Of a DNA stretch of 36,290 nt, positions 23,174-32,320 are shown in pieces; position 1 is the first letter of the stretch, and each line of letters opens with the position of its first letter. The stretch spans positions 1-36,290 of the forward strand of contig JAJYGP010000036.1 in assembly GCA_021785035.1 (NCBI GenBank). Direction: 5' to 3'. The DNA comes from Pseudomonadota bacterium. Lineage in GTDB: Bacteria > Pseudomonadota > Gammaproteobacteria > Acidiferrobacterales > Acidiferrobacteraceae. The notes beneath the pieces were generated by a model. The model did not search any database. It was not told the origin of the DNA and saw only the letters and a program-made list of their open reading frames with translations. The position numbers and the translations under genes were made by a program.

Positions 23174-24376
23174 ATGGATGACAAACCGAGTAGTGAACGT
23201 GCCCGGGAAAGAGGCGGTTTGACGCCGGTTGTGATCTTGTCGCTGGGTACTTTTGCGGTCGGCACGGATGCCTTTATCGTGGCCGGATTTTTGCCCTCCC
23301 TGGCTGCGAGCTTGCATGTCTCTGTGGGTGTGGCTGGACAGAGCGTCACAGTCTTTGCGGTCACGTATGCTGTGTTTGCGCCTATCCTAGCGACACTTGC
23401 CGCGAGAGCGCCTCGTCGCACCCTGTTGGTGGCTGCGTTAGTCGTTATAGCCGGCGCAAATCTCGGCGCGGCCGTGGCCCCCGACTTTACCGTCCTGATG
23501 GTGTTTCGCACCCTGGCCGCACTGGGGGCCGCCGCGTATACGCCTACTGCAAGCGCGGTGGCGGCATGGCTTGCGCGCTCCGCTTTGCGCGGCCGGGCCT
23601 TGGCTTTGGTCCTAGCCGGTTTGACTTTCGCTACCGTGTTGTCGGTGCCGATTGGGAGTCTCATGAGCGACTGGACGAGCTGGCGGGTTGTTTTAGGTTT
23701 GGTCGCTGGGCTTGCGCTTTTGAGTAGCGTCGCTGTATTGCGAGTGTTGCCGGTTCTTGGCGGTGGACCCTTTGTTCCGCTTCGCGATCGGCTGGCCGTT
23801 TTGCGTAAGCCCGGCGTGATCAGCCTACTGCCGCTGACCGTACTTGGCATGGCGGCGAGCTACGCAATTTATGGGTATTCGGTGCCGGCGCTGCAGGGTG
23901 TGGGAGTCGAGCCCGCGGGAATAGGGGGATTTTTATTTCTCTATGGCCTTGGGGCTATATTAGGCAGCGGCCTGTGCGGCTATGTCATCGACCGGTGGGG
24001 GGCTACTCGTATGTTATCGGTGACCTATACCATCATGACCCTTTCTCTAGGGCTGCTTGGCTGCTGCGCGCTGCACACGCGCTTTCGGGGGCACCATATC
24101 GACGGCGGTTGTGGGTCTTCTGGTTAGTCTCTGGGGCGCGAGTACATGGTCGCAGACGCCGCCCCAGCAGCACCGGCTTATCGCTGCCGCACCGGAGATC
24201 GTATCGCTCGTTTTGTCTTTGAACGCCTCAGCAATTTATTTAGGAATCGGATCGGGTACCGCCTTGGGGGTGTCGCGCTTACAGCCGGCGTGCCTGTGCT
24301 CTATGGAGTCGCTACCATGATCGCAGCGATCGCTTGGCTTTATTTTATTGGCACGCTACGGCGTAACAGGGTATGA
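23174..24376 (+). pseudogene. MFS drug-efflux-type transporter, two frameshifts
   Basis: The first 300 codons encode an intact MFS half and more: a cytosolic start, then GTFAVGTDAFIVAGFLPSLA (TM1) and VTYAVFAPILATLAARAPRRTLL (TM2 and the conserved loop). VFRTLAALGAAAYTPTASAVAAWLA and LTFATVLSVPIGSLMSDWTSWR follow, as in the AraJ/YdhP-type sugar-drug exporters. Near 24060-24080 the frame moves and continues TAVVGLLVSLWGASTWSQ and SLVLSLNASAIYLGIGSGTALG. At the G run near 24265 it moves back and ends GVALTAGVPVLYGVATMIAA. Joined, it gives the usual length of about 400 aa with 12 helices. The un-joined product stops in the tenth helix and is probably inactive. Confidence 0.85.
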
Positions 24377-25477: not shown

Positions 25478-26137
25478 ATGTACTGCCCCGGAACGTTTGC
25501 GGAAACTCGTCCCGAAGTGTTACGGACACTGATTCAGCATTATCCCCTCGCAACCTTGATCACCATAGGTAGCGAGGGACCAGAGGCCGACCATATCCCG
25601 CTGTATCTCTTGCCCGGGAAGGGGCCGCATTACGTGTTACAGGGACATGTGGCGCGCGCTAATCCGCTATGGCAAAAGGCGTCCCCAGGCAATGAGGTGT
25701 TGGCCATCTTCCAGGGGCCACAACACTACATAAGTCCTTCTTGGTATGCCACAAAGGCGGAAAACGGCAAGGTAGTGCCGACTTGGAACTATGCCGTCGT
25801 CCACGTCCATGGGCTGCTTCACGTCAAGGACAATCCCGATTGGGTCCGGCAACAGATGGTCGGCCTGACCACGCAGCAGGAGAGTCGCTTTGCGCGGCCC
25901 TGGCAGGTGGATGATGCGCCTCAGGGTTTCACGGAGTCGCTTATCGGACAGGTGGTGGGCATAGAAATCCCGATCTCGCGGTGGGCTGGTAAATGGAAGG
26001 TCAGCCAGAACCAGCCGCTTTCCAACCGTGACAGTGTCGGGGCGCACCTGGAGAGGCAAAATCAGTCTGGCTCCTTGGCTATGGCTGAATACGTTCTGGC
26101 CTGCGCAAAAAACGGGGAAAAGGACCATCCTGAATGA
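25478..26137 (+). CDS. PaiB-family FMN-binding protein
   Basis: This 219-aa split-barrel flavin protein is of the type called FMN-binding negative transcriptional regulator. The opening MYCPGTFAETRPEVLRTLI, DHIPLYLLP, LQGHVARANPLW, VLAIFQGPQHYISPSWY, VPTWNYAVVHVHG and GFTESLIGQVVGIEIPISR.GKWKVSQNQP are all family marks. In Bacillus the homologue PaiB is paired with the polyamine acetyltransferase PaiA. Here the next gene also carries an acetyltransferase domain, a parallel arrangement. It overlaps that gene by 4 nt. Whether it regulates DNA or acts as a flavin enzyme is open. Confidence 0.92.
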   Translation: MYCPGTFAETRPEVLRTLIQHYPLATLITIGSEGPEADHIPLYLLPGKGPHYVLQGHVARANPLWQKASPGNEVLAIFQGPQHYISPSWYATKAENGKVVPTWNYAVVHVHGLLHVKDNPDWVRQQMVGLTTQQESRFARPWQVDDAPQGFTESLIGQVVGIEIPISRWAGKWKVSQNQPLSNRDSVGAHLERQNQSGSLAMAEYVLACAKNGEKDHPE

Positions 26138-27339
26138 CGACTCGTGTCGGTTTTTTGGTCTTCCCCGGCCTCCAGCTTTTGGATCTGGCGGGCCCGTATG
26201 AGATTTTTAGTGCCTTATCGGATTGTGAGGTGCATCTTTTCTGGAAAACCCGAGAGCCTTTGGCCTGTTCAGCAGGTATGCTATTTCAGCCGACGGCCAC
26301 CCTCGACTACGAACTGCCGGTGGATGTTCTCTGTATACCCGGAGGCGTCGGTCTCAATGTTTTGTTGCAGGATGAGGAAATTCTAAGCTGGATACAGCGC
26401 CAGGCGGCAACGGCGCAGTTTGTCACCTCTGTATGCACCGGGGCGCTGTTGCTCGGTGTGGCAGGATTGCTTGCCGGACGGCGCGCGACGACACATTGGC
26501 GTTATCTTGATCTCCTCACTGAATGTGGCGCCATACCTATCCGGGAGCGTGTGGTTCAAGACGGCAATCTGATCACCGGTGGCGGTGTTACTGCCGGGAT
26601 AGACTTTGGTCTTGTGCTGATTGCAGCCTTGCGTGGCCAAGGTGCGGCTGAAGAAATTCAGCTTGCCATGAAATATGCGCCGGAACCGCCTTTCCAGGCT
26701 GGTAGGCCGGATGATGCGCCCAGGGATGTCTTGGAGGTCGTCAGATGCCGCACTGAAGCACTGCATGCCGAACGTGAACGGATGATTGGGACCTGGCGGA
26801 ATATTCCCCTTAGCTTGTCAGATAAGGGCGAAGACGTGATCTGCGCCCCCCTCGTTCGCGAACTAGGGCAGGACGACGATTTCGCTTATCGCTCACTCTG
26901 GCAGGATGCCATGCAACAACACGCGCAGTATTTCCGCATAGCGGCGGGAGATGATGTTCCCGTGGGTATTCCCACGCGAGGAGCAAATGACAGCTTTACC
27001 TTAGGCGCCTTCGAGAAAAATGTGCTAGTCGGGATTGTCAGTCTGGAGCGGGATCGCGGTCTGAAATTGCGGCATAAGGCGTTACTTTTTCGCATGTTCG
27101 TGGCGCCGGAGGCGGCCGGCCGTGGTCTCGGTAGGTCGCTTTTGCAGGCGGTTCTCTCCCGTGCACAGGAGATCGATAATTTACGGTCCGTTCGTTTGAC
27201 TGTTCTGGAGCGAAATCATCGGGCCCGAGCGCTGTATCGGTCGCTGGGTTTCGTAGATTTCGCACTGGAGCCAGATGCCGTTCACATGGACACAGATTAT
27301 GTGGCTGAGGTACAAATGATACGATTTCTCAAAAAATGA
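26134..27339 (+). CDS. DJ-1/PfpI (isonitrile hydratase-like) domain fused to GNAT acetyltransferase
   Basis: This is a 401-aa fusion. Residues 1 to about 215 are a DJ-1/PfpI domain of the isonitrile hydratase type: D17 (LQLLDLAGPYEIF), CIPGG, the nucleophile elbow SVCTGALLLG with C101-T102, and GLLAGRRATTHWRYLDLL. From memory, D17, C101 and T102 match the catalytic positions of Pseudomonas isonitrile hydratase. Residues about 216-401 are a GNAT domain with the acetyl-CoA loop AGRGLGRSLL (about 329-338) and ALYRSLGFVDF. The first part may hydrate or deglycate a substrate and the second acetylate an amine. It is coupled on both sides by ATGA overlaps (26134, 27336). Confidence 0.9.
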   Translation: MTTRVGFLVFPGLQLLDLAGPYEIFSALSDCEVHLFWKTREPLACSAGMLFQPTATLDYELPVDVLCIPGGVGLNVLLQDEEILSWIQRQAATAQFVTSVCTGALLLGVAGLLAGRRATTHWRYLDLLTECGAIPIRERVVQDGNLITGGGVTAGIDFGLVLIAALRGQGAAEEIQLAMKYAPEPPFQAGRPDDAPRDVLEVVRCRTEALHAERERMIGTWRNIPLSLSDKGEDVICAPLVRELGQDDDFAYRSLWQDAMQQHAQYFRIAAGDDVPVGIPTRGANDSFTLGAFEKNVLVGIVSLERDRGLKLRHKALLFRMFVAPEAAGRGLGRSLLQAVLSRAQEIDNLRSVRLTVLERNHRARALYRSLGFVDFALEPDAVHMDTDYVAEVQMIRFLKK

Positions 27340-28211
27340 ATACCGTGACGCTGATCCAGTATCAGATTGATGCTTTTAGTCACCGGGTTTTTTCTGGCAA
27401 TCCGGCGGCTGTTATTCCTCTAGACCAGTGGCTCCCCGATGCGGTTATGCAAGCCATTGCTGAAGAAAATAATCTCTCTGAGACCGCCTTTTATATCCCG
27501 GCAGAAAACTCTGGCACCTTCCATTTACGCTGGTTCACACCGGTGGCTGAAGTGGATTTGTGCGGCCACGCTACCCTAGCAACAGCACACGTTCTCTTTC
27601 ACGAACGGGGATTTCAAGGAAATAAGGTCACCTTCGAAACCCGTAGTGGTGGCCTGTATGTGACCAAAGACGGCAATAAGCTCACTATGGATTTCCCCGC
27701 CTGTTCGATCCATCCGGTTGAGATGCCAAACGCATTGCGGCAAGGGTTGCGGCTTACACAAAAGCCTGCAGCGATTCTTGCCGGAGACGACTATATCGTG
27801 GTACTTGAGAACGAAGAGGAGATCTGCAGCGTTCGTCCTGACTACCAATTTCTGGCGCAACTCGATTTACGGGGCGTGGCAATTACGGCACAAGGGACAG
27901 AGGCGGATTTTGTTAGTCGCTTCTTTGCGCCGAAATTTGGCGTTTCCGAGGATCCGGTTACCGGGTCCGTGCATTGTGCGCTAGTTCCCTATTGGGCAAA
28001 AATACTGCATAAAGATACCATGTGCGCGAGACAGCTATCTAAGAGGGGTGGCACTATAACATGTGTGTTTGATGGCGGTCGCGTGCACCTTTCTGGCCAC
28101 GCCGTCACCTTCATGGAAGCGAGGATCATTATTGACGCCGCATCGGGGCCCACGGCGAGTCATAATCCGACAGCGCGGGGCGAATTAGCGCAGAACCCAA
28201 CGAAATTATGA
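27336..28211 (+). CDS. PhzF-family isomerase/epimerase
   Basis: This 291-aa protein has the diaminopimelate-epimerase-like double domain. It shows YQIDAFSHRVFSGNPAAVIPLDQWL, the catalytic Glu in NNLSETAFY (E49, matching E45 of PhzF), FTPVAEVDLCGHATLATAH and GVSEDPVTGSVHCALVPYW. PhzF itself isomerises a phenazine precursor. Most homologues have no known substrate and occur in secondary metabolism or stress operons. The C-terminal tail of about 25 residues (after EARIIID) is polar and longer than usual. No phenazine genes are nearby, so the gene name phzF is not warranted. Confidence 0.93.
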   Translation: MNTVTLIQYQIDAFSHRVFSGNPAAVIPLDQWLPDAVMQAIAEENNLSETAFYIPAENSGTFHLRWFTPVAEVDLCGHATLATAHVLFHERGFQGNKVTFETRSGGLYVTKDGNKLTMDFPACSIHPVEMPNALRQGLRLTQKPAAILAGDDYIVVLENEEEICSVRPDYQFLAQLDLRGVAITAQGTEADFVSRFFAPKFGVSEDPVTGSVHCALVPYWAKILHKDTMCARQLSKRGGTITCVFDGGRVHLSGHAVTFMEARIIIDAASGPTASHNPTARGELAQNPTKL

Positions 28212-28215
28212 GATA

Positions 28216-28861
28216 TTGAGGGTGACTATACGCGACGGATATCTGCTCATTATGTTGGGAGGTGGATTAGTCGCCCCAATAATCTATTTTTTGAATATTC
28301 TTTGGGCGGCTGCCGTTTATCCTGGCTATCGACATCGGAGCCAATTTATCAGCGAACTTGGTACCCGTATTTCTCCGGGCGCCCGCTACTTCAATAGATG
28401 GCTCAGCGTTACCGGGACAATGCTGGTAGTGTTTGCTTTCGGTGTATATGTGAGCCTCGGTAGTCAAAGAGAGGCACTGGGTATCCTGCTAGGACTTGTG
28501 TTGTTTGGATTGACCGTGGTGATTATGGCAGTTTTCCCTTGTGATTCTGGGTGTCCGCGTACTCCGCAATCGCGGGCAGGAATGGTGCACGGTTTTTTTT
28601 GGTGTCTTGGGCGCGCTTGCGTTTGTGACTTCCGTCGCACTGTTTTGTTTCGTCTGGTGGCTGATACACCCGATATTCGCCATATATTCTTTTATCACAG
28701 TTCTTACGAGCACCATTTGTCTGGTCATTTTAATGCTGGAGCGAACATCGGGTTGGCAAGGGATATGGCAGCGAATTTATGCGGGCGTAGTATTCAGCTG
28801 GGTACAGGCGCTAAGCGGGCTGATCTTGATATCGGGCAGGAGCCTATTAGCATTTCATTGA
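28216..28861 (+). pseudogene. DUF998 membrane protein frameshifted at a T8 run
   Basis: The reading begins at TTG 28216, GTG 28222 or ATG 28252. It encodes LIMLGGGLVAPIIYFLNILW, HRSQFISELGTRISPGARYF, LVVFAFGVYVSL, VVIMAVFPCDSGCP and AGMVHGFF, all typical of the six-helix DUF998 family. At 28593-28600 eight T residues shift the frame. With seven T the reading continues GVLGALAFVTSVALFCFVWW, AIYSFITVLTSTICLVIL and VFSWVQALSGLILIS to a TGA near 28861. As written, translation enters a hydrophilic tail to 28866. It may be a true mutation, a sequencing error, a phase-variable tract or a slippage site. Confidence 0.82.
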
Positions 28862-28866
28862 GGTAG

Positions 28867-29478
28867 CTTAAGACCACTCGGGAATTGAGCTACTGCGCCC
28901 GCGCCACGATGACTTGTACGGGCAGTAGGCTCGGATCGGAGTGAGCGGCAGGACGAGGTCCGAATACGCTACCAAACAACAATGAGGCCTTTACAGGCGT
29001 TCTTGTGGGGAGGAAGCCGGGTATTGGGTTTATGTAGGGTGTGTCCGCGGGTACGTACGGCGCCATCTCTACGCAATCGCGGGACGTTGTGTTCTCTATC
29101 CTGCGGGGTGTGCGCCGTGAGGCGTTTATGGACCACTGACACGACCCTGAAGACTTTTTTATCAAGACGCTCTTAAAACAGTACGCTGGCTTTTCTGAGC
29201 GACCTTCGAGATAGGTCACTTGGGTGGTCAGGATACGGCTTGTCAGGACCATAGGCTGGCTTTAGGCTTGATCATTGGCCATATAGGGCGACAAGATGCG
29301 GTGGTGAAAGTTACAGATCGACGGCGCCACAGGCTTCACGCGGCTTTCGCGTCATCGGTGCGGTTCCTAGGGTTACCCACCACAACCAGTCGTACTCATG
29401 GCGCGACTATACAAGGTCGGTGAAAGCGGTCATGAAGATACTTGCCCAGCCATGTACCCCGATGGTTGAATAGGACAA
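28867..29478. other. Intergenic region without a recognisable gene
   Basis: These 612 nt contain no gene I can identify. A 120-aa minus-strand frame (28890-29252) is listed separately at low confidence. Past 29252 there are only short frames on either strand. No tRNA, insertion sequence end or clear terminator was seen. The promoter of the two-gene unit that follows should lie near its 3' end, but no good box was found. Confidence 0.4.
28890..29252 (-). CDS. Doubtful 120-aa hypothetical frame
   Basis: The frame has an ATG at 29252 and 120 codons. The C-terminal half (YVPADTPYINPIPGFLPTRT, FGSVFGPRPAAHSDPSLLPV) reads somewhat protein-like. The N-terminal half is Ser/Arg-rich with no clear secondary structure. 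There is no clear ribosome site and I recognise no family. It may be a remnant or chance. Confidence 0.2.
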   Translation of the reverse strand: MVLTSRILTTQVTYLEGRSEKPAYCFKSVLIKKSSGSCQWSINASRRTPRRIENTTSRDCVEMAPYVPADTPYINPIPGFLPTRTPVKASLLFGSVFGPRPAAHSDPSLLPVQVIVARAQ

Positions 29479-29484
29479 ATGCCC

Positions 29485-30903
29485 ATGGATCTTATGCTTG
29501 TAAAATGCGGTACATGCTTTCGAAGCCCGCTGAATTGTGATACCGCCTTTTTGCTCTCAGACCCAGAGGGCGCATGCGTTTTCCTGGAAAGAGTGCAGGC
29601 AGTCCTTGAAGAGCAGGGCGTAGGCCTCGTGGAGGTCGTATTCAACCAAACCAAACGTAAGGCCAAGTGGCGGTATGCGACATCCGAGGACGACGATGAC
29701 AGCGTGCTTCTCGACCCACTGCTTAGAATCAGTAACCTACAAATACCTGCAGCGACAAGGTTTCGGATCGAAGACGCCATCAAGGCGTCCGAGTTTCCGA
29801 CCTCCCTATTCTCGGAGCACAGTGTCGAACTCTACGTCTACGACAATCTCTTTGGTATGTTGGAATGGGATTTTACGCTTCGATGCCTGGGGCGCGACAT
29901 AACAGCCGCAGACAGGTCGGAAATAGAACTCTTGATCCATACCATTTCCGTTGAACTGATGGAGGCTATTACTCAGACTGACATATTCAGCCAGATCCAC
30001 GCTGCGGCCGCGAGCACTCTTCCAATCAAGGCCTTGAGGGGACGACGGTTTGGCCCCTTGTATTTGGAAAGAGAGCAGGACTACATCGATCTTTTAGTGC
30101 GCAATAAAGAAACTAAGGTCACAGCGCGGCGCCCTGTTATCGTACCAAGTATTTTATGGACGGCGCGGCTTTATATTTGGCCGCATGGGGGAGTGAGCCA
30201 GGAACAAAAGCAATTTTTGCTGGCTTTATTGCATAAGGATACGGTCTGTGTGAGCGCAAGCAATTGCCGAATTTATTGCGCGTGGGGTTCGAGCGCCGTC
30301 GCAAGCGACACCGAGGTCGACGAAGGGGTCGTGGAGCGGATTTCCGCCATTCGCAGGGAGCTTCAGTACATATTTGCTGTGACCAACGAGTACGCGAAAA
30401 AGACTGGTAACGCCTATTTTCGATCTTTGGGGGGGCTTGTGCGCAGAGGTACGGACGTGTCGGATTGGCTGGAAAGCGCCAAGACGCACTTGAGCCAGAT
30501 GCTATACATCTGCAAAGACCGAGACATGGGTTTGCAAGGCTGGAAAAGCGAGTGCTTTGTCGCGTATATGCGGCTATGGAAGGTCGAGCCTTATATTGTT
30601 ACCACGATCAACAAAGTGGATACGGCCCGCAATCTTGTGGACGCCATGCGCGCGAGACAGGGCAGTCGGATGCAAAAACAGATCAAGAATATTCTTGCGG
30701 CTCTCGGGCTCATGGAGGCGCTCGGCGTCATCACCGAAATTACTGAGTATTCTCATAGCCCTGACTATCGCCCCAGCACGACTTGGGGAATTCTTCGTGT
30801 GTTTCACTCATGGAGACCTGATGTAACGATTTCGGTGGCAGCTCTTCTTATACTGTCATTCTTGGTGGTGGCAATTTTGTACATAGGGACCCTGAAGGAG
30901 TAA
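29485..30903 (+). CDS. Unrecognised 472-aa protein with C-terminal membrane anchor
   Basis: I do not recognise this protein. The ATG at 29485 is preferred over 29479 because AGGA (29472-29475) is then 9 nt away. Near the N-terminus is a CxxC with a further Cys (KCGTCFRSPLNC, C8, C11, C18), which may bind metal. An acidic run EDDDD follows at about 70. The middle has mixed alpha/beta character (VELYVYDNLFGMLEWDFTLRC). From about 300 to 440 it is mostly helical. The end is a single membrane helix (VTISVAALLILSFLVVAILY, about 447-466) and a 6-residue tail, so it looks tail-anchored with the bulk in the cytosol. The layout faintly recalls CorA-like helical stalks, but only one membrane helix is present. 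The lyase-like gene follows after 4 nt. Confidence 0.8.
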   Translation: MDLMLVKCGTCFRSPLNCDTAFLLSDPEGACVFLERVQAVLEEQGVGLVEVVFNQTKRKAKWRYATSEDDDDSVLLDPLLRISNLQIPAATRFRIEDAIKASEFPTSLFSEHSVELYVYDNLFGMLEWDFTLRCLGRDITAADRSEIELLIHTISVELMEAITQTDIFSQIHAAAASTLPIKALRGRRFGPLYLEREQDYIDLLVRNKETKVTARRPVIVPSILWTARLYIWPHGGVSQEQKQFLLALLHKDTVCVSASNCRIYCAWGSSAVASDTEVDEGVVERISAIRRELQYIFAVTNEYAKKTGNAYFRSLGGLVRRGTDVSDWLESAKTHLSQMLYICKDRDMGLQGWKSECFVAYMRLWKVEPYIVTTINKVDTARNLVDAMRARQGSRMQKQIKNILAALGLMEALGVITEITEYSHSPDYRPSTTWGILRVFHSWRPDVTISVAALLILSFLVVAILYIGTLKE

Positions 30904-30907
30904 GTGA

Positions 30908-32320
30908 ATGGACACGCCATACCTGAACCAGTTGCTAGAGGCCTCCGAGCGGCATGTGCTGCCGCCGGCGGTGCTTGAGGCGGCGGCGAGAATCGCGGCC
31001 GAGCGTGCGTGGGTGGAGGAATTGCTGCAGCAAGGGCACGTTAATTCGATTTACGGGTTCAACACGGAACTTGGGCATCGTGATTTTGTGACGGTCGATC
31101 CCAAGGCCGGCCCCGATTTCCAAAAAGCGATCTTCGCCAGCCATCACATGCGGCCCAGTTATGCGCGTGGTGTGTATCCGCGGGCCGTAGCCTCACTTAT
31201 AGGTTATGTAAAGGCGTTTCAATTGAGTCGGGGCGGGAGCGGAATTTCCTCGGAGGCCTACGCGCGTATCGTGCAGAAGGTGACCAACCCCGAGTTTTGT
31301 CCACGCATTCCGGCCGGGCAGTCGTACTCCTCGGGTGATGTGTTGCCCGCGACCCACTGGGTCAGTGCGGTATTTGACCTCGATGGTTCGGCGCCCTATG
31401 CCCTGAAGCCGGGCGACATGATCGCCTTGATCAACGGCAATTTCGTACACACGGCCTTGGCTGCGGACAATTATCGGGAATTGAAGCAGCTTACTCAATA
31501 TGTGGTCGTAAGTGGCGCCTATGCCGGTCGCCTCTGTGAACTGGCCCGGATCAACTACCTACGGGATTTGCCCCGGGATAAGGAAGCGGCGCAGAAGTCC
31601 CTTGACTATCTCGTGCGTACGGCAGACGGTCGGAAAAGTCTTTCAACCTCTCCCCAGCGCGCCGTCTCGATACGGGCGATTCCTGACGTGATTATCGAGT
31701 TTTGTAGTGCGCGCCACGCGCTTGGTCGGGAAATCGAGATGTTGATTCCAACGCAGTCTGCAAATCCTTTATTCGATCTTGCCCGTAAAGAGGTTTTTTC
31801 CAGCCCGGGTTTTTTGGCGATCGGACTGGCCTTGGCTCAGAACAAGATGATCGAGACCTTACTGCTGGTGTTGCGGGCATCGGTCGCTAGGCTCAGTTTC
31901 ATTTTGTCGGGTCGGGTGGCAGGTATCCCTGAGGATGGCTGGGACCCGACTGCGGAGGCGGGCCTCGGTTTTATCCAGGTTCCCAAGGAATTGACAGCCG
32001 TGGTCGAGGCCGCATATCAGGCCTATGGCCGGCGCGGGTTTGCCTCGGGGGGCGCCACCTCCTACGGTATTGAGGACTTATGGACCCAGGGCGAGGCCTT
32101 GTCTCGGGATATCCATAAGCTGAGCCTTATCGCCCGAGACGTATTGCGGCGCGAGATTGCGGTCTATGAGGTCGTAAGCCGGCGCTGCGTACCCGCCCGA
32201 TCTATGGGTTTGTGCCCGGAGGGCTCGCGGAAGGGCTTAGGGATGGTGGCCGAGCTTCACTTTGTCGAAGATGTTTTGCGGGGGCTTAAGGGCCTCACGA
32301 CTGAAGACCTTGGGGATTAG
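30908..32320 (+). CDS. Divergent aromatic amino acid ammonia-lyase (MIO family) homologue
   Basis: This 470-aa protein is of the histidine/phenylalanine ammonia-lyase superfamily, shorter than HutH (about 510). GGAG lies 7 nt before the ATG. The loop Tyr is kept as Y49 (SIYGFNTELG; YGINTGFG in HAL). The cofactor triad is S141-S142-G143 followed by D144 (GQSYSSGDVLPATHW), where HAL has A-S-G at 142-144. N177 (LINGNFVHTALAA) matches HAL N195. Q250 and R256 (QRAVSIRAIP) match Q277 and R283, but HAL Y280 is Val here. E389 (YGIEDLW) may match E414. The FHGEP-type segment is lost (GFLAIGLAL). It may still form MIO but probably has altered substrate or mechanism. It is coupled to the membrane-anchored unknown protein. 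Confidence 0.88.
   Translation: MDTPYLNQLLEASERHVLPPAVLEAAARIAAERAWVEELLQQGHVNSIYGFNTELGHRDFVTVDPKAGPDFQKAIFASHHMRPSYARGVYPRAVASLIGYVKAFQLSRGGSGISSEAYARIVQKVTNPEFCPRIPAGQSYSSGDVLPATHWVSAVFDLDGSAPYALKPGDMIALINGNFVHTALAADNYRELKQLTQYVVVSGAYAGRLCELARINYLRDLPRDKEAAQKSLDYLVRTADGRKSLSTSPQRAVSIRAIPDVIIEFCSARHALGREIEMLIPTQSANPLFDLARKEVFSSPGFLAIGLALAQNKMIETLLLVLRASVARLSFILSGRVAGIPEDGWDPTAEAGLGFIQVPKELTAVVEAAYQAYGRRGFASGGATSYGIEDLWTQGEALSRDIHKLSLIARDVLRREIAVYEVVSRRCVPARSMGLCPEGSRKGLGMVAELHFVEDVLRGLKGLTTEDLGD

Follow-up and report, generated by a model that had tools for sequence, protein, structure and literature searches.

A stretch of 36,290 nucleotides from a pseudomonadotal genome (the window, meaning here the whole stretch that was analysed) carries the gene of a 470-aa homologue of the MIO-family lyases (PF00221), which by its sequence appears to form a new deep branch of this known enzyme family and which, in the reading we hold with moderate confidence, would be a compact MIO enzyme, catalytically active and of new specificity. 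Directly in front of it lies the gene of a partner protein, and the two close relatives of the lyase, on the contigs L002 (genome G001) and L003 (genome G012), both come from MAGs of the same genus. The features to which the text refers are the following:

29398..29484, forward strand: about 87 nt 5' of the partner gene, conserved in L003 too (blastn), probably a cassette leader or promoter
29485..30903, forward strand: partner gene, 472 aa, with a C-terminal hydrophobic helix at about residues 447-469 and no family match (ORF, family searches)
30908..32320, stop codon included, forward strand: divergent MIO-family (PF00221) lyase homologue, 470 aa (ORF, translation, Pfam, alignments)
31328..31336, forward strand: codons of the presumed MIO triad Ser141-Ser142-Gly143 (translation and alignment to HAL Ala142-Ser143-Gly144)
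31664..31666, forward strand: Val codon 253, aligned with HAL Tyr280, flanking Gln250 and Arg256 retained (alignment)
32072..32074, forward strand: Glu codon 389, aligned with HAL Glu414 (alignment)

The lyase frame starts with ATG and runs over 470 codons. Its product matches PF00221 (Lyase_aromatic) with E=1e-25 and 90.8 bits, exceeding the Pfam gathering cut-off of 27.3, and profile-profile comparison (hhalign) with eight canonical lyases gave a probability of 99% (E=3.2e-18, 329 columns); on both scores, the family match is not by chance. The profile search that the preliminary description had proposed thus upheld the family, whereas the NCBIfam models for HAL, PAL, TAL and aminomutases all stayed below their cut-offs. 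Six lyase and aminomutase models matched at 20-60 bits, all far under cut-off: two HutH models (TIGR01225, 49.3 bits, cut-off 539; a second one, 59.9 bits, cut-off 524), two aminomutase models (TIGR04475, 32.8 bits, cut-off 800; TIGR03832, 27 bits, cut-off 501) and two TAL models (NF053541, 22.3 bits, cut-off 700; NF041222, 20.1 bits, cut-off 1000); TIGR01226 (phenylalanine ammonia-lyase) gave no match up to E=1 in this search. As a yardstick, a plasmid-borne annotated tyrosine aminomutase and two plasmid-borne aromatic lyases reach 390-518 bits on TIGR01225, and the 470-aa protein is therefore further from HutH than these are. In the PDB its best match is HAL (1gkm), and its own assembly (94.5% complete) contains no second PF00221 gene. 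The AlphaFold2 model, built from 5 sequences (pLDDT 39.6, pTM 0.27), was too poor for a fold search.

Tree placement, the other check proposed earlier, was done by maximum likelihood on 32 rows: the three cassette lyases fall outside the 29 other lyases with support 100/100, on a branch of about 10 changes per column (8.8 and 1.2 on either side of the midpoint root). Long rows are unsurely placed in this tree, its bootstrap is unsettled and PAL (plant/bacterial) and ergothionase sequences were left out of it; it gives the distance of the cassette lyases and no sister group. The initial interpretation is right in part: its MIO-family homologue beyond the characterised clades is upheld by the six models far under their cut-offs and by the separation from these 29 lyases. 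Close relatives turned up in no more than the two genomes G001 and G012; the scan of all genomes used short exact lyase peptides, which distant members would escape, and the profile searches, which covered the window's own phylum only, gave matches in 22 of 369 genomes of the class (E 0.001) and in 31 of 398 genomes of the phylum (E 1e-6), the window's own genome being counted in both. The lyase matched 419 plasmid records with the threshold at E=1 and 431 with it at E=10, all below 60% identity, and those among the best 20 of the 419 and the best 60 of the 431 were annotated as HutH, aminomutase or aromatic lyase or had no annotation. Protein searches and a motif pattern found no relative of lyase or partner in viral contigs, and among the literature matches listed, mainly from openly accessible journals, there was no paper on this lyase.

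For the active site, the lyase and its two relatives were aligned with 44 lyases of other Pseudomonadota, the best profile matches (L032, another fragment of the L014 gene, was excluded; the counts leave out lyases L055-L083 and ten of the eleven phylum-search matches without a locus, the other one being L015), with HAL numbering counted along alignments to 1gkm (P. putida), in which the motif residues are Y53, A142-S143-G144, N195, Q277, Y280 and R283. Identity of the lyase to the 44 is 18-24%. Retained are Tyr53 (Y49), Ser143 (S142), Gly144 (G143), Asp145 (D144), Asn195 (N176), Gln277 (Q250), Arg283 (R256), Asn313 (N286), Phe329 (F302), Glu414 (E389) and His83 (H79), among them all six catalytic positions Tyr53, Asn195, Gln277, Arg283, Phe329 and Glu414. 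Translation confirmed much of what had been described before: the triad S141-S142-G143 in the MIO-forming context SYSSGDVLPATH, the loop Tyr in YGFNTELG (Tyr49), the Asn of LINGN (Asn176), and Gln and Arg kept around a Val in place of the motif Tyr (QRAVSIR, that is Gln250, Val253 and Arg256). Altered in all three cassette lyases are Ala142 (Ser141), Tyr280 (Val253), the Gly of NTG (Glu54), His330 (Leu) and Gln413 (Ile); the alignment also shows deletions of about 18 residues following the MIO helix and of 6 near KPFD. The statement that a FHGEP-like segment is absent stands only for its His, which is lost; PGFLAIG aligns with GNFHAEP, and its Phe is kept (F302 for F329). The retained Glu414 and His83 and the Glu54 of NTG are additions to the preliminary description.

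The emphasis first placed on S-S-G as unusual does not hold, since Ser is named as an alternative first residue of the MIO triad, X-S-G with X being Ala, Ser, Cys or Thr, in a passage of PMC9002059; the S-S-G-D of all three cassette lyases fits this pattern followed by Asp. Rarer than the triad change is that of Tyr280: Val stands there in 3/3 cassette lyases and Tyr in 43 of the 44 compared ones, the only other Val being that of L017, a protein without an X-S-G triad, and the Gly of NTG, adjoining the catalytic Tyr, is Glu in 3/3 and Gly in 44/44 others. The loss of Tyr280 and the two-gene cassette are the real surprises, S-S-G being ordinary; conserved as it is, we do not take Tyr280 as defining the whole PF00221 family. 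According to passages of PMC11432326, Tyr277 of GkHAL, its equivalent, is described as possibly assisting Glu411, activity is abolished in GkHAL by Y52F, H82L, N194D or E411D, and MIO does not form in PpuHAL F329G. The 44 compared lyases are otherwise very uniform, with ASG in 42, A-C-G in L020 and M-A-G in L017. The latter (G268, 979-2532) is HutH-like with 314.7 bits to TIGR01225 (under cut-off), has GHGMAGDAS in place of X-S-G, a tyrosine aminomutase as best PDB match and a branch of 7.3, and is perhaps a MIO-less lyase relative; L020 (G080, 922-2496) is HutH-like as well, and L008 (G045), with an ASG triad and Gln in place of Glu414, is encoded by an open frame exceeding 970 codons and is possibly a fusion.

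At least 40 of the 44 lyases agree in ninety-nine columns; the cassette lyase keeps 45 of these and has lost 54 (3 through gaps). The losses are unevenly spread: ten catalytic or MIO-forming positions, picked from knowledge of HAL, are kept in 9/10 cases (the sole exception being Tyr280, now Val253), the other conserved columns in 36/89 (Fisher exact, one-sided p=0.0033). Alternative sets, chosen after this first test, gave 9/11 with Ala142 added (p=0.012), 10/12 with Ala142 and His83 added (p=0.006) and 6/7 without triad and Asp (p=0.033). This column test is the best argument that selection has acted on catalysis and not on the fold alone. The active-site residues are also identical among the three cassette lyases, a weak argument given their overall identity of 79-89%.

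The lyase starts 4 nt past the stop codon of the partner gene, and order and gap are alike in 3/3 loci (window, L002 and L003). The partner, for which an alternative in-frame ATG at 29479 would add 2 aa, closes with VTISVAALLILSFLVVAIL, a very hydrophobic stretch (mean Kyte-Doolittle 2.9), and it is therefore probably anchored in the membrane by its C-terminus; the coupling of the lyase to a membrane protein, noted at the outset, is thus well founded in the 4-nt gap and the hydrophobic helix. No family above cut-off was found for it in Pfam (AAA_lid_6, E=0.05) or NCBIfam (TIGR02880, E=0.005), nor was there a match in PADLOC, PHROGs, the PDB or plasmids, and its structure prediction (pLDDT 38.2, from 3 sequences) was too poor for a fold search. 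A defence system was considered and set aside, PADLOC giving no match. Among 57 genomes of the order, three have the partner gene (all within the 14 of the genus), and this type of lyase is encoded in exactly these three. Both genes are under purifying selection, with pairwise dN/dS values of 0.10-0.12 (lyase) and 0.11-0.14 (partner). By blastn, similarity between the window and L003 spans 29398-32320, ending at the stop codon of the lyase, and in the roughly 87 nt upstream of the partner promoter-like matches were no more frequent than by chance.

In all three carriers the cassette lies between clpB and nadC, pointing toward clpB in the window and G001 and, reversed, away from it in G012. Seven stretches of other genomes of the genus (six reaching aroC) show the order aroC, thioesterase, clpB, marC, egtC, egtB-like and nadC, with egtD between marC (or clpB) and egtC in L128, L130, L131, L132, L166 and L167 (clpB, marC, nadC, aroC and thioesterase were named via Pfam, egtC and egtD via NCBIfam above cut-off; the egtB-like protein matched SenA and EgtB models under their cut-offs). 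The marC gene has 77-91% identity in nine other loci and none was found in the window, L165 or L167. In G012 the cassette lies between marC and egtC, with egtC and the egtB-like gene intact behind it, and is flanked by ends of egtD (L003, 4293-4457 and 7499-7657), one flank carrying roughly the final 54 codons, the other matching the first 53 codons weakly (E=6e-4); DNA similarity to L132 backs these remnants. By these alignments the G012 cassette appears to sit inside a broken egtD, in a 77% complete MAG in which a misassembly at this point is possible. At the cassette locus of the window and of G001, egtD, egtC, egtB and marC were not found, and close copies of egtB, egtC and egtD were not found elsewhere in these two genomes either. 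Full-length egtC and egtB-like genes are present in 10 of the 13 genus genomes searched and an intact egtD in 9 of 14, all nine lacking the cassette (0/3 carriers, 9/11 non-carriers). In G004, which holds no cassette, the egt genes are lost except for remnants, and egtD is missing from G013 too, so decay of the slot needs no cassette; in G004 (L164, 6000-10000) egtC and egtB remnants are found and a Lipoprotein_16 ORF stands at the egtD slot of its relatives.

Synonymous divergence between the window and L003 is 1.07-1.11 in the cassette, below that of clpB (1.97) and nadC (1.81), and between L002 and L003 it is 0.94-0.99 versus 1.41 for clpB, a smaller gap; between the window and its nearer relative it is no lower (0.60-0.66 versus 0.54 and 0.39). 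The lower values suggest that the cassette has moved between lineages, with saturation as a caveat. Its ends share no 8-mer in L003 and no 9-mer in the window that would indicate repeats, and the text of a paper on Acidiferrobacter mobile elements (PMC8889020) does not contain clpB, ergothioneine or histidine. The absence of a hut operon, already pointed out in the preliminary description, was confirmed, as no hut gene was recognised among the ORFs around the cassette in the window, L002 and L003 (by eye and some family searches), and no substrate, pathway gene or regulator is common to the cassette flanks of all three carriers. Several neighbouring genes show irregularities of their own: an MFS transporter ORF (window 23174-24127, 317 aa; best model Cmx/CmrA with 374 positions, far under cut-off) looks truncated or frameshifted at its C-terminus, a DUF998 ORF (28216-28866, 216 aa) overlaps a second ORF of 106 aa that resembles a membrane protein and is read in a different frame, suggesting a frameshift within one gene, the DJ-1/PfpI-GNAT fusion at 26134-27339 corresponds to two overlapping ORFs in L002 (2783-3987), and about 1.55 kb (window 27638-29194), which begins within a PhzF-like gene and reaches the region just ahead of the cassette, is missing at L002 4286, leaving PhzF truncated there.

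Against our own reading stand the small sample of three sequences, the two relatives being from MAGs, and the replacement of Tyr280 by Val and of the NTG Gly by Glu and the loss of 54/99 strongly conserved columns. Could the protein have kept the lyase fold, lost ammonia elimination and taken up a role as binding partner or scaffold for the membrane protein? The two replacements and the lost columns would speak for such a pseudoenzyme, as does the invariable pairing with the membrane protein (3/3). It is rendered rather unlikely by the better conservation of catalytic and MIO-forming positions than of other conserved columns (9/10 vs 36/89); of the non-catalytic role raised earlier, the possibility survives, now as the less likely one given this selective retention. 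An ordinary, merely diverged HutH deaminating histidine would agree with HAL as best PDB match and with the kept equivalents of His83 and Glu414; set against 49.3 bits on a model with a cut-off of 539, on which other plasmid lyases and the aminomutase reach 390-518, a branch of about 10 and no recognised hut gene beside the cassette, it appears highly improbable. We give little credit to a MIO aminomutase, which would perform a 2,3-amino shift and supply a beta-amino acid for a secondary metabolite: R256-A-I-P-D-V is nearer to RAIPQV of the tyrosine aminomutase 2rjr than to RCQPQV of HAL and TIGR04475 and TIGR03832 match weakly, but 32.8 and 27 bits contrast with cut-offs of 800 and 501, and the ORFs read at the three loci include no biosynthetic gene cluster beside the cassette.

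A role in the metabolism of ergothioneine or hercynine (histidine betaine), as a stand-in for EgtD or in product breakdown as by ergothionase, is suggested by the G012 locus, where the cassette sits in the broken egtD between marC and egtC, next to intact egtC and egtB-like genes, by the distribution of intact egtD (0/3 carriers, 9/11 non-carriers) and by the retention of the imidazole-contact residues His79 and Glu389. In G012, dN/dS of EgtB and EgtC is not raised, although pairwise values would hide a recent change. The link is weakened by two of the three carriers, the window genome and G001, having the cassette and no detected close EgtB, EgtC or EgtD, and by G004 and G013, where the locus decays anyway; furthermore, the triad is kept although a betaine offers MIO no free amine, and ergothionase 6s7j is absent from the matches of the lyase at E up to 10. 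Altogether, we consider this role improbable.

In the active MIO enzyme that we prefer, Ser141-Ser142-Gly143 would self-cyclise to the MIO group, the equivalents of the helper residues for MIO formation (Asp144 and Phe302) being retained, Tyr49 would serve as the catalytic base, and Asn176, Gln250 and Arg256 would grip the amino acid substrate. The enzyme may remove ammonia from an L-amino acid or shift its amino group; as the equivalents of His83 and Glu414 are kept, a side chain contacting His79 and Glu389 by an imidazole or another hydrogen-bonding group is our first guess, and Val253 and Glu54 would reshape the pocket for a substrate that is probably not plain histidine. The partner, probably on the same mRNA, may tether or regulate the lyase at the membrane, and the gene pair would travel as a two-gene accessory cassette inside one genus. 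A bolder version, which we regard as doubtful, is a new class of MIO enzyme that would make up, together with the partner, a mobile two-gene membrane module and might act beyond the classical free aromatic amino acids (on a peptide or protein, a derivative of histidine or a metabolite that the partner handles at the membrane) and spread among acidophiles via the ergothioneine locus. Against the uniformity of the compared lyases, a lineage that is shortened, paired with a membrane protein and devoid of Tyr280, with the catalytic set otherwise kept, would test which residues MIO chemistry needs; it may reveal a new substrate and would assign an activity for the first time to a membrane-protein family as yet unclassified, and its cassette shows the interval between clpB and nadC to be a place where genes turn over in this genus.

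Compared with known systems, the lyase shares with HAL/HutH (1gkm) Tyr53, Ser143, Gly144, Asp145, Asn195, Gln277, Arg283, Phe329, Glu414 and His83, but differs in S-S-G, Val for Tyr280, Glu for the Gly of NTG, its length of 470 aa with deletions of about 18 and 6 residues, the lack of a recognised hut gene alongside and a score far under the HutH cut-off. With the tyrosine/phenylalanine aminomutases and AdmH (2rjr, 3unv), the latter presumably also with a non-Ala triad, it has the MIO-family residues in common, and RAIP[Q/D]V follows the Arg as in 2rjr, which, however, keeps the Tyr where the lyase has Val, and the model scores of 27 and 32.8 bits are far from 501 and 800. The cystobactamid aminomutase domain was discarded as a likeness, the ASG motif being absent from that domain according to a passage of PMC7966384. 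Ergothionase (6s7j, 6s7q) belongs to the same superfamily, being matched by a canonical lyase, and in one carrier an egt locus surrounds the cassette; 6s7j itself was not among the matches of the 470-aa lyase, either in phmmer (E up to 10) or in profile search (E up to 1). We take ergothionase to lack MIO, whereas the 470-aa lyase keeps the triad.
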